DNA of 64,000 nucleotides from Collinsella tanakaei (lineage in GTDB: Bacteria > Actinomycetota > Coriobacteriia > Coriobacteriales > Coriobacteriaceae): contig NZ_JAUDCO010000002.1 in assembly GCF_030373545.1 (NCBI RefSeq), positions 62,001 to 126,000 on the forward strand, written 5' to 3'. The notes under the pieces were generated by a model. The model was not told the DNA's origin, did not search any database, and saw only the letters and a program-made list of their open reading frames with translations. This document shows positions 44,298 to 48,447 of the stretch, one piece after another. Positions within the stretch are counted from its first letter, which is position 1. Each line of letters starts with the position of its first letter. A program made the position numbers and the translations under genes.

Positions 44298-45044
44298 CTA
44301 CAGCACGAAGCCGAGCGCGATGAGGGCCACGCAGACGACGAGCGTGACGACGTCGCGACCGACGATGGGGTAGCGCTTGTAGGAGCTCGCGCGGGTGCGC
44401 AGGTAGAAGCCGCGCTGCTCGGCGGCGAGCGCCGTGGCGTCGGTCTTGCTCACGCTCGAGATGAGCAGCGGTACGCACAGCGGCAGCATGAGCTTCATCT
44501 TCTTGAAGGGGTTGTTCGTGTCGTAGGCCACGCCGCGGGCGGTCTGCGCCTCGATGATGGCGTTCATCTCCTGCGAGAACACCGGCACGAAACGCAGGGC
44601 GGTCGTGAAGGTGAAAGCGTACTTGTAGGGGAGATGCAGCTGCTCGACGCACGCGTTGGCCAGATCGTTGAGCTTGGTGACCATGAGCATGAGCACGAGC
44701 GGGAGCGCCACTCCGAGCAGGCGCAGGCAGGCCTTGCCGCCGGTGACAAGGCCCGCATCGGTCACGAAGGCGAACAGCGTCTCGCCGCTGCGGACGAAGA
44801 TGAGCTGCAGGACCAGCATGATGAGCGCGACGGGCACGAGCAGCTTGAGCAGGCGGGCGAGGCGGCCGAACACGCCGGCGTAGACGGCGAGCAGCAGCGT
44901 GAAGGCGAGCAGGCCGACAAGCGCGGCATAGGTGTCGGACAGGAAGGTGGCGATGATGATCGCCGCGGCGAGCGCCAGCTTGGTGACGGGGTTCAGGCGA
45001 TGCAGCAGGGTGTCGCCGGGTACGTAGTCGATCACGTTAAGCAC
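44298..45044 (-). CDS. ecfT: ECF transporter transmembrane component EcfT
   Basis: The 248-aa protein has about five to six helices and the coupling-helix signatures AQTARGVAYD (A-R-G motif) and LAAEQRGFYLR. EcfT links the ATPases to S components. It is the last gene of the operon, and its start overlaps the ecfA end by 8 bases. Confidence 0.93.
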   Translation of the reverse strand: MLNVIDYVPGDTLLHRLNPVTKLALAAAIIIATFLSDTYAALVGLLAFTLLLAVYAGVFGRLARLLKLLVPVALIMLVLQLIFVRSGETLFAFVTDAGLVTGGKACLRLLGVALPLVLMLMVTKLNDLANACVEQLHLPYKYAFTFTTALRFVPVFSQEMNAIIEAQTARGVAYDTNNPFKKMKLMLPLCVPLLISSVSKTDATALAAEQRGFYLRTRASSYKRYPIVGRDVVTLVVCVALIALGFVL

Positions 45045-46794
45045 GGCCCATCAGCTCCTTCACGGTCCGGACGATATCGCTGACCTCGGTGATGTGGGAG
45101 AACGCGGGGGAGACGTCGTGCGCCAGGCGCTGTGCGAGGTCGATGACCTGCGGGGGCGTGACGCTCGAGCGCGCCATGAGGTCGCGGTCGGCGAACAGGT
45201 CGCTCGCCGGTCCGCGGCCCAGGATGCGCCCGTCCGCCATGACGACGATGCGCTCGGCGAAGTCGCTCACGACCTCCATGTCGTGGCAGACCATCACGAC
45301 GGCGCTGCCGTGCTCGGCCATATCGCGCACGGTCTCCATGACCGTCATGCACTCGCGGTAGTCGAGACCGCTCGTGGGCTCGTCGAGCACGACGATATCG
45401 GGCTCCATGACGACGACGCCGGCGAGCGCGACCATCTGGCGCTGCCCGCGCGACAGCGAGAAGGGCGCTTCGGTGGCGGGCAGGCCGAACCGCTTGATGA
45501 CGCGCCGTGCGCGCTCGCGCGCCGCGGACGGATCGACGCCGGTGAGCTCGAGGCCGAAGGCGACCTCATCGAGCACGGTGTTCTTGCAGATCTGCCGGTC
45601 GGGGTTTTGGAACAGCGTCGCCACATGGGCGGCGATGGTCGACACGGGCGTGTCGCGCGTATCGAGCCCGGCGATGCGCACCGCGCCCTGCGAGGGGCGC
45701 AGCAGGCCGTTCAGCAGCTTGGTGAGGGTGGTTTTGCCTGCGCCGTTCTGACCCACGATGCCCACGAGCTCGCCCGGATAGACGGTCATGGACAGGTCTT
45801 GCACGCTCGCGCCGCCGTTGGGGTAGGTGAAGCCCACGTCGCGCAGGGTGAGCACGGGCTCGGCGCCCTCGGCGTGCGGGCGCGCGGGCACATGGGGGGA
45901 CGGCTCGGGTTCGTCCGCGGCGCGCTCGCCGATGCCGGGCACCGTCGAGAGCGTGTCACGGATGAGCCGGTAGGCCTCCTCGACGTTTAGGCAGGGTTCC
46001 GTGGGCACAGCGAGGCCGTCGCGCGCCAGGCTGTTGGAGATGCGGACCGTGCGCGGGCTGTCGACGCCGATGGCGCGCAGGCGATCGCCGTGGGCGAACA
46101 CCTCGTGCGGCGTCCCCTCGAGCTCGAGTCTGCCGGCGTTCATCACCAGCATGCGGCTGCAGTACTCGGACAGCAGCGCGACCTTCTGCTCGATCACGAT
46201 GACGGTGATCTTCTTGGTGCGGTTGAGCTCGCGCAGGATGTCGAAGACCATGCGCGAGCTCACGGGATCGAGCGCGGCGGTGGGCTCGTCGAGCACCAGC
46301 ACGCGCGGGGCGAGCGCCAGGATGGCGGCGATTGCGACCTTTTGCTTCTGCCCGCCGGACAGCGTGGCGATCTCGCGGTGGCGCAAATCGGCGATGCCGA
46401 CGGCGTCGAGCGCCTCGCTCATGACGCGCTCGATATCAGCGTGGTCGACGCCAAAGTTCTCCAGGCCGAACAGCAGCTCGTCCTCGACGATTGAGGCGAC
46501 CATCTGGGCGTCGATGTCCTGGTTGACGCTGCCCACGATGCGCGCAATGTCGGTGAGCGTCACCTCGCAGGTATCGGTGCCGTCGATGCGCGTCGCGCCG
46601 AACAGCTCGCCGGTGAAATGGTGGGGGATGGCGCCTGACAGGCACGCGGCGAGCGTGGACTTGCCTGCGCCCGACGGGCCGATGACGCCCACGAAATCGC
46701 CCGCCTCTACGCGCAGGGAGATGTCGTCGAGCGCGTGCTCGGCCTCCGATCCGTATGAGAACGAGACGCTCTCCATCTCGATGATCGCTGCCAT
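45037..46794 (-). CDS. ECF transporter ATPase with two fused ABC domains
   Basis: The 585-aa protein carries two complete ABC domains in tandem, replacing separate EcfA and EcfA'. Domain 1 has Walker A GPSGAGKST (residues 39-47), signature LSGGQKQKVAIAA and Walker B LVLDEPTAALDP. Domain 2 has GQNGAGKTTLTK, LSRGQRQMVALAG and VVLDEPTSGLD. A ~50-residue Pro/Glu linker separates them. ATG 46794 follows AAAGGTTCCC. Fused EcfAA' proteins are known in actinobacteria. Confidence 0.94.
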   Translation of the reverse strand: MAAIIEMESVSFSYGSEAEHALDDISLRVEAGDFVGVIGPSGAGKSTLAACLSGAIPHHFTGELFGATRIDGTDTCEVTLTDIARIVGSVNQDIDAQMVASIVEDELLFGLENFGVDHADIERVMSEALDAVGIADLRHREIATLSGGQKQKVAIAAILALAPRVLVLDEPTAALDPVSSRMVFDILRELNRTKKITVIVIEQKVALLSEYCSRMLVMNAGRLELEGTPHEVFAHGDRLRAIGVDSPRTVRISNSLARDGLAVPTEPCLNVEEAYRLIRDTLSTVPGIGERAADEPEPSPHVPARPHAEGAEPVLTLRDVGFTYPNGGASVQDLSMTVYPGELVGIVGQNGAGKTTLTKLLNGLLRPSQGAVRIAGLDTRDTPVSTIAAHVATLFQNPDRQICKNTVLDEVAFGLELTGVDPSAARERARRVIKRFGLPATEAPFSLSRGQRQMVALAGVVVMEPDIVVLDEPTSGLDYRECMTVMETVRDMAEHGSAVVMVCHDMEVVSDFAERIVVMADGRILGRGPASDLFADRDLMARSSVTPPQVIDLAQRLAHDVSPAFSHITEVSDIVRTVKELMGRA

Positions 46795-46903
46795 GGGAAC
46801 CTTTCCGATGTCAATCGCTGGATGCACCCGTCGTCTGCGCGCGATGCGCGGATGGGGTGGGGGATGTCGCTTGAGTGCGGCAGCATCCCATGATACCCGA
46901 GTT

Positions 46904-47461
46904 CTAGCGCTTCAGCGCGGCGCGAAGCGGCAGATAGAGCGCCTGCACCACGAACGCGTTGAACACCGCCGTGCCGAGCACGAGCGGGACTTTGACGAGG
47001 GTGGCCTCGAGGGCAAAGCCCGAGATGACCGTACCGGCGACGGCGAACAGCGCGCCGGAGACGAGTGTAGCGACGAAGGCGGCGACGAGCGGCGTCACGC
47101 TGCGGCCGGCGATGCGCACGTCGAGGCGGATGAGGGCGGCCATGGCAAGCGCGCCGGCGACCTCGGTGGCAAAGTTGAGCCCGGGGATGGACGTGCTAAT
47201 CTGGATGACGGCGGCGGACACGAGGCCGAACACGGCTGCCTGAGCAAACGAGCTGCGCGTGATCAGGATGGCGAGCGCGTAGGCCGCGATGATGAACTGC
47301 GGCTTGATGCCAGTCATGGCCAGCGCGTTGCCGAGCGTCATGTTGAGGATGAGGCCGGCGGCAAGCAGCACGGCGAGCAGGATGAGCGAGGAGATACCGG
47401 TCGTGCCGGCGTGGGAGGTCGGGGCGGTCACGGTGCGGGCGACGGTGTCGTTCGAGCGCAT
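46904..47461 (-). CDS. ECF substrate-binding (S) component, second copy
   Basis: The 185-aa membrane protein has about five to six helices and is paralogous to the gene at 47591. Shared landmarks are LLAVLLAAGLILNMTLGNALAMTGIKPQFIIAAYALAILI and GLVSAAVIQISTSIPG. The IKP-F/SA-IQ-STS-PG pattern is like that of TrpP-type tryptophan S components. It lies between S component 1 and ecfA. AAAGGACGCCTCCC precedes the ATG. Substrate (tryptophan or a related indole) is inferred from the leader peptide. Confidence 0.85.
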   Translation of the reverse strand: MRSNDTVARTVTAPTSHAGTTGISSLILLAVLLAAGLILNMTLGNALAMTGIKPQFIIAAYALAILITRSSFAQAAVFGLVSAAVIQISTSIPGLNFATEVAGALAMAALIRLDVRIAGRSVTPLVAAFVATLVSGALFAVAGTVISGFALEATLVKVPLVLGTAVFNAFVVQALYLPLRAALKR

Positions 47462-47590
47462 GGGAGGCGTCCTTTCGGTATGAGGGATGGGCCCGTCGGG
47501 ATGACGGTGCGGCAGCGTCGGGTATGGAGGTTGGATCGCGGGCCTGCGCGGCCCTTGAGGAGGCGGGTGCGGCCTCGGGCCTCAAGGGTG

Positions 47591-48166
47591 CTAGTCGTTG
47601 AGCTTCAGGGCCTTCTTGATGGGCACGTACAGCGCGCCGACGAGCACGGCGTTGAAGACGGCGGTGAGCGCGACGACGGGCAGCATGGCCGCGGCGATGG
47701 ACATGTCGAACTGCATGAGCGCCATGCGGATGAGCATGAAGATGAAGCCGGAGACGAACGTCGTCACGAAGGTGCCGAGGGTGGGGATGACGGCGCGAGC
47801 GCCGGTCTTCATGCCGGCGTTGACGATCGCGGCCATGAGCATGGCGGCGATGCCCTCGGCGACGAAGTCCGCGCCGGGCAGGCTCGTGGTGAGCTGGATG
47901 ACCGCTGCCGAGACGAGGCCGATGATGAGCGCCTGGCCGATGTTCGGACGCACGACGAGGATGGTGATGCAGAACGCCGAGATGATGAACTCGGGGGCGA
48001 TGGTGCCGCCGGAGATGCTCGAGATGGGCTTGCCGACGGTCATGTTGAGGATGAAGCCTGCCGCCAGCAGGATGGCGAGCAGGACGAGCGCCTTGATATC
48101 GAGCTTGCCGCGGTCTGCGGAGGTGACGGTGCGGGCGCGGGAGGTGTCGGTGCTGTTCTGGGACAT
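47591..48166 (-). CDS. ECF substrate-binding (S) component, first copy (probable tryptophan uptake)
   Basis: The 191-aa protein has a polar ~20-residue N-terminus, then LLAILLAAGFILNMTVGKPISSISGGTIAPEFIISAFCITILVV and GLVSAAVIQLTTSLPGADF. It resembles TrpP-type S components, which bind the substrate and toggle in the membrane for EcfT/EcfA. It is the first gene of the operon, 70 bases after the attenuator terminator. AAAGGAACGCACC precedes the ATG. The Trp-rich leader upstream is the main reason for the substrate call. Confidence 0.86.
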   Translation of the reverse strand: MSQNSTDTSRARTVTSADRGKLDIKALVLLAILLAAGFILNMTVGKPISSISGGTIAPEFIISAFCITILVVRPNIGQALIIGLVSAAVIQLTTSLPGADFVAEGIAAMLMAAIVNAGMKTGARAVIPTLGTFVTTFVSGFIFMLIRMALMQFDMSIAAAMLPVVALTAVFNAVLVGALYVPIKKALKLND

Positions 48167-48235: not shown

Positions 48236-48267
48236 AAAAAAGGCCCCCGGTCAAACCGGAGGCCTTT
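48236..48267 (-). terminator. Attenuator terminator in the ECF operon leader
   Basis: On the minus strand AAAGGCCTCCGG (48256-48267) pairs with CCGGGGGCCTTT (48239-48250), with one wobble, and runs into six T. It stands between the Trp leader peptide and the first S component. The GGCCTC of its first arm can alternatively pair with GAG-CC just after the leader peptide codons, forming an antiterminator. Confidence 0.85.
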
Positions 48268-48296
48268 CGCGCGCTGAATCTATAGGCGCGATGGAC

Positions 48297-48365
48297 TCAC
48301 CGTCGACCGAACGGATTCGCATCACGCCACCACCAGTTGTTGAGGGAAGCGATGGACTTCTTCAT
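48297..48365 (-). CDS. Trp leader peptide of the ECF operon attenuator
   Basis: A 22-codon ORF with ATG at 48365, AAAGGAG 8 bases upstream and TGA at 48297. The middle reads NNWWWRD, with three consecutive TGG codons. Immediately after them GGCGTGATG can pair with CATCGCGCC (region 1:2); CGCGC of region 2 can pair with GCGCG (region 3) to form an antiterminator that runs into the terminator arm. Stalling at the Trp codons when charged tRNA-Trp is low would free region 2 and turn the operon on. It was too short to be found by length-based gene calling. Confidence 0.85.
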   Translation of the reverse strand: MKKSIASLNNWWWRDANPFGRR

Positions 48366-48418
48366 CCCGGTGGCTCCTTTCGAGTGGTCGCGGTTCGCAC
48401 GCATCGTGCGTTGAGGGC

Positions 48419-48447
48419 ACTATACCATAGTGGAGCGCACGCAGGAA
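48419..48447 (-). promoter_or_regulatory. Promoter of the ECF operon leader
   Basis: On the minus strand a -10 TATAGT (48419-48424) has a weak -35 TTCCTG (48442-48447) 17 bp upstream. The palindrome CACTATACCATAGTG (48418-48432) covers the -10 box and could be a repressor site. Confidence 0.55.

Follow-up and report, generated by a model that had tools for sequence, protein, structure and literature searches.

What does the ECF transporter encoded on the minus strand of this region carry, and what is the role of the short reading frame with three tandem Trp codons that lies in front of its operon? The window (the whole stretch of DNA that was analysed, 64,000 nucleotides) lies within contig 12 of a 2.2 Mb genome that is 99.96% complete and has Collinsella as its closest named relatives. 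The S, A, A' and T genes all stand in one operon, so that the ECF transporter has dedicated A, A' and T components:

47591–48166, minus strand: S1, ECF substrate-binding component, TrpP-like, 191 aa, no Trp
46904–47461, minus strand: S2, second TrpP-like S component, 185 aa, no Trp
45037–46827, minus strand: fused A-A' ATPase of the ECF transporter, 596 aa, no Trp
44298–45044, minus strand: T component (CbiQ family), 248 aa, no Trp

We argue that the sequence in front of S1 is very probably a ribosome-mediated transcription attenuator: responding to charged tRNA-Trp, it would govern tryptophan import by an ECF transporter in an organism that cannot make this amino acid. That the ribosome stalls, that polymerase reads through and that tryptophan is transported are steps that we infer from conservation, covariation, gene context, gaps in the genome and calculated structures.

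The preliminary description of this DNA had reported a −10 box TATAGT, a ribosome-binding site AAAGGAG, a 22-codon ORF with three TGG codons, downstream pairings and a terminator with six T, and all of these are found on the minus strand where it had placed them. Between 48424 and 48236, the −10 box, the Shine-Dalgarno (SD) site, the ORF, a helix and a strong terminator follow one another in order:

48419–48424, minus strand: promoter −10 box TATAGT, with TGG in front (extended −10 type)
48374–48380, minus strand: Shine-Dalgarno site AAAGGAG of the leader ORF
48297–48365, minus strand: leader ORF MKKSIASLNNWWWRDANPFGRR, 22 codons plus TGA
48327–48335, minus strand: three tandem Trp codons TGGTGGTGG, the predicted stall site
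48320–48328, minus strand: region 1 GGCGTGATG, predicted to be masked when the ribosome stalls on the Trp codons
48285–48293, minus strand: region 2 CATCGCGCC, partner of region 1 or else part of the antiterminator
48293–48309, minus strand: antiterminator 5' strand CGGTCGACGGTGAGTCC (last leader codons, stop codon, next bases)
48248–48264, minus strand: antiterminator 3' strand GGCCTCCGGTTTGACCG (terminator 5' arm, loop, start of 3' arm)
48236–48267, minus strand: intrinsic terminator, six T at 48236–48241, hairpin of about −24 kcal/mol

The terminator thus stands between the leader ORF and the first gene, S1, whose start is at 48166. In a comparison of 55 non-redundant leaders, a TAYAGT −10 box lies upstream of 42 (vs 3.6% of shuffles), no good −35 consensus was seen upstream of the leader ORF, and an SD-like sequence is present in 54. 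The leader RNA folds with a z of −3.6 relative to dinucleotide shuffles. The sequence TGGTGGTGG occurs 24 times in the genome, and the copy at 48327–48335 is the only one that lies in a short ORF with a T-run after it. The Rfam attenuator families, including RF00513 (Trp_leader), gave no match to the leader even at E up to 10, and a Trp T-box or known Rfam element at this locus was rejected, there being no stem I specifier and no GGTGGNACCGC core. Beside the SD site, GCCACC (48369–48374) can pair with the Trp codons (48327–48335) and might couple initiation at the leader to translation; a conserved hairpin of these two elements was considered and set aside, as its −12.2 kcal/mol against −10.9 kcal/mol in shuffles is too weak to claim.

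A string of Trp codons in a short ORF could in principle arise anywhere, and its weight depends on whether relatives keep it. S1 homologues occur in 64 of the family's 67 genomes, including every one of the 59 that are of good quality; the upstream regions of these homologues and of 60 further genes of the same order make up 124, of which 116, mostly from two Coriobacteriales families, can be parsed as a leader by a pattern in which six codons separate the Trp codons from a Gly codon, a variable codon (usually Arg or Gln) and one further codon come next, and a stop codon and then a terminator follow. The Trp codons of homologous leaders, whose conservation had been proposed as a check, read WWW in 113 of the 116, WW in two (L072 and L138) and WAW in one (L082). 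L132 has a WWW leader whose T-run was missed by the parse pattern, the leader of L142 lies just beyond the fetched stretch, L027 is cut by the contig end, and L143–L145 carry a T-box in place of the leader. In L136 and L137 the leader ORF is lost, and a terminator with a similar hairpin, CTCCCGGGTTGACCGGGAG, still stands before the ECF operon. A covariance model built from 53 leaders matches this genome once (E 1e-19), 66 of the 67 genomes of the family with one strong site each, and 134 of the 298 genomes of the order; in the rest of the phylum sample its matches are weak only. The reading of the ORF as a chance WWW string ahead of an ordinary terminator is refuted by conservation over two families and about 27 genera, together with one strong site per genome in nearly all, and its probability is negligible.

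The RNA downstream of the Trp codons is conserved as structure. Immediately past the Trp codons lies region 1 (GGCGTGA...), and its partner, region 2 (...TCGCGCC), lies beyond the stop codon; at this locus they pair as GGCGTGATG with CATCGCGCC in 9 bp with one G-U. Across the 53 leaders, standard pairs fill 81% of region 1:2 cells, compared with 26–53% when the partner is slid, and both sides have changed in five of the seven pairs. Covariation of the alternative stems had also been put forward as a check, and in region 1:2 two-sided changes occupy 26 cells against 9.7 in shuffles, a count reached by none of 500 shuffles, while native pairs do better than swapped ones (p = 5e-5). Leader conservation and covariation thus support the proposal that a trp attenuation layout stands ahead of transporter genes, as far as comparative sequence can indicate.

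The antiterminator had been described incompletely. The CGCGC:GCGCG pairing (48286–48290 with 48268–48274) is present, and is only the inner part of a longer hairpin, the decisive part of which joins the end of the ORF and the stop codon to the 5' arm and loop of the terminator. With a stalled ribosome modelled and the transcript ending at GACCG, this hairpin has a calculated energy of −27.6 kcal/mol, its outer strand 5'-CGGUCGACGGUGAGUCC-3' (last leader codons and stop codon) pairing with 5'-GGCCUCCGGUUUGACCG-3' (terminator 5' arm and loop) and the inner pairing sitting within it. The outer five pairs are formed in 99.2% of cells. The outer helix has no covariation of its own, and its swap test reaches only p = 0.05 because both strands are nearly invariant; in L081 and L141 both strands have changed. 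Codon choice in the leader is a further record of this strand: its Gly codon is GGT in 54 of 55 leaders, whereas in eight nearby genes GGT makes up 12 of 210 Gly codons and GGC 173; the next codon is CGA in 36 of 55 leaders, compared with 2 of 166 Arg codons in the same genes; and the native helix has a mean z of −2.5 against synonymous recoding. We read the antiterminator 5' strand as held by RNA selection, not by peptide selection.

This bears on the proposal that the leader peptide itself works, whether while still nascent or as a small protein, and that conservation of the RNA is a by-product. The motif NWWWRDxxxxGR is strongly conserved, as such a peptide would be; however, the N-terminal half varies freely, the rare codons GGT and CGA are retained, and the peptide stops early while the RNA bases are kept both in L133 and L135 and in the leaders of relatives that we take, from sequence matches and general knowledge, to be Slackia. 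We regard a peptide function of this kind as very improbable and return to the attenuator.

The logic of regions 1 to 4 together with tandem Trp codons is that of the E. coli trp leader, and applied to the Coriobacteriales leader it predicts the following course. When tryptophan is ample, the ribosome would reach the leader stop codon and cover the end of the ORF and the following bases, the terminator would form, and transcription would end before S1. When tryptophan is absent, the ribosome would stall on the three UGG codons and cover region 1. The emerging 5' arm and loop of the terminator could then pair with region 2, the stop codon and the last part of the ORF, and the antiterminator thus formed would let RNA polymerase continue into S1-S2-A-T. 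With no ribosome on the leader, region 1 would pair with region 2, favouring termination.

Folding of the 55 leaders with the ribosome modelled by masking the bases that it covers, either at the second Trp codon (stall) or at the stop codon, is largely in keeping with this course. As long as the 3' arm is unfinished, the modelled stall places the terminator 5' arm in the antiterminator (P > 0.5) for 54 of the 55 leaders. With the ribosome at the stop codon, 6 of the 55 exceed this value, and every one of the 55 full transcripts folds into the terminator. By calculation, then, the antiterminator excludes the terminator and is masked once the ribosome reaches the stop codon. At equilibrium, 48 of the 55 full transcripts prefer the terminator even with the ribosome stalled; since for most leaders the complete terminator is the more stable of the two structures, the switch must act during transcription, a timing that is an accepted feature of attenuators. 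When no ribosome is present, 45 of 55 leaders favour the antiterminator until the 3' arm is finished, and the protective role of the 1:2 helix therefore rests on covariation, not on the folding calculation.

If the leader senses tryptophan, does the transporter carry it? The substrate had been given as tryptophan or an indole relative and the transporter as anonymous. The latter is not fully so, the S components appearing to be distant relatives of TrpP. Against the Pfam TrpP profile (PF17099), S1 scores 22.0 and S2 20.9 bits, both below the curated cut-off of 27.2. Of 17 homologues, 10 hit the profile with an E of 0.01 or lower, the strongest with 6e-13. The predicted fold of S1 (mean pLDDT 84.5) has ECF S components (ThiT, RibU and others) as its best PDB matches, with Foldseek probabilities of 0.96–1.00 for the first six and weak E-values. 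TrpP is counted among the ECF S proteins (PMC11487621), and in B. subtilis it is a tryptophan importer, the loss of which gives resistance to 5-fluorotryptophan (PMC13170310).

Of the two substrates, tryptophan is the likelier, as TrpP homology, the gaps among the trp genes, T-boxes with UGG, the related leaders and the Trp-free operon agree in suggesting. TrpA, TrpB and TrpB2 are all missing from this genome; a match to TIGR00263 (38 bits, cut-off 392) was rejected as TrpB, being another PLP enzyme. Indole therefore could not be converted to tryptophan here. TrpA is missing from 63 of the 67 genomes of the family, and the transporter is present in every one of good quality. An attenuator that is real while the import substrate is indole or another relative of tryptophan would fit with the related WWW leader found before trpB2 (indole to tryptophan) in a few relatives, a sign that the lineage does use indole salvage. 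Indole would be useless, however, to this genome and to most of the family, which lack TrpA, TrpB and TrpB2 and keep the transporter, and the relative with experimental support is the tryptophan importer of B. subtilis (PMC13170310); we hold the indole reading to be improbable. The second WWW leader has another ending (like AAAWWWNxxxxxLSD and stop) and is followed by a terminator (L203, L204, L206, L207, L208); it precedes trpB2 in five of the six family genomes with trpB2 over the cut-off, and WWW also stands before trpB2 in L308, from another family.

The importer of tryptophan that we favour has counterparts under other control. Orthologous ECF operons of sister families carry a T-box instead of the attenuator (L143–L145, L153–L157, L159–L161, L163–L167, L169, L170, L182), with UGG at the specifier position in 19 of 19; these are full-length model matches with E 1e-9 to 1e-15, under Rfam's curated score. 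In the Slackia type (L302–L305, L310, L311, L306), a WWW leader with an often shortened peptide is followed by the same antiterminator sequence and precedes a gene of the sodium:neurotransmitter symporter (NSS) family. In L306 the symporter-type leader lies about 1.6 kb upstream of a second leader, which precedes the ECF operon. The NSS member TnaT is a tryptophan transporter (as cited in PMC2494555).

The composition of the operon is a further pointer. The four transporter proteins (44298–48166) contain no Trp in 1,220 residues, where the composition of 46 other genes in the window would predict 10.8 (P = 2e-5), and their relatives contain 0–2. Other ECF modules of the genome have ATPases with 4 and 3 Trp and one T component with 0, so the zero of the T component is not special. 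The only Trp codons of the operon are those in the leader; encoding no tryptophan, the transporter can be produced when tryptophan is scarce.

The two S components need not share a substrate: tryptophan might go to S1 and something akin to it, for example one of its derivatives or a small peptide, to S2, which would be compatible with the explanation preferred here. They are only about 45% identical, and a search with S1 finds S2 (46904–47461) in just about a fifth of the family. Against this, both match the same TrpP profile at similar strength, and single-S operons of other families resemble either S1 or S2. A division of substrates is thus possible, if doubtful.

Attenuators of trp genes were known in other Actinobacteria before trp operons, trpB2A and trpS, the Corynebacterium and Streptomyces type standing also before trpS2 and trpB2A (PMC1262725). 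As here, those attenuators have two or three UGG codons in the leader, a GC-rich terminator with poly-U and an antiterminator that shares terminator bases (Seliverstov et al., 2005, PMC1262725). Whereas their targets are synthesis genes and a tRNA synthetase, the Coriobacteriales target is a transporter, in organisms that lack tryptophan synthesis, and the conserved pairings GGUC/GACC and GAGUC/GGCYUC belong to the Coriobacteriales group, unlike Corynebacterium and Streptomyces. In Firmicutes, Trp T-boxes stand before ABC and NSS transporters (Wels et al., 2008, PMC2494555), and there too uncharged tRNA-Trp turns on tryptophan transporter genes; T-boxes, however, bind the tRNA directly without translation, whereas the attenuator proposed here would depend on translation of the leader. 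TrpP (YhaG) of Bacillus subtilis is an S-component-like tryptophan transporter, as S1 and S2 appear to be, but is repressed at translation by TRAP, while the S genes here share an operon with their own A-A' and T genes. In the open-licence literature we found no report of an ECF transporter under a trp attenuator, nor of such an attenuator in Coriobacteriales. The mechanism is known; the target, an ECF transporter, and the lineage are new.

Across the Coriobacteriia, one attenuator design probably serves several routes to tryptophan, namely the ECF importer, the sodium symporter and, through a related variant, the indole-salvage enzyme TrpB2, and is replaced on the orthologous ECF operon of sister families by a tryptophan T-box, so that two unrelated RNA sensors would act on the same transporter. 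These operons, with a leader-peptide attenuator in one clade and a T-box in a second, offer a direct test of how RNA regulators are exchanged. The work also gives a probable substrate to an ECF transporter found in all 59 good-quality family genomes searched, in a family that includes common human gut bacteria dependent on outside tryptophan. Here classic attenuation would be applied to uptake instead of synthesis, and the predicted switch should activate the tryptophan importer only once tryptophan runs out.
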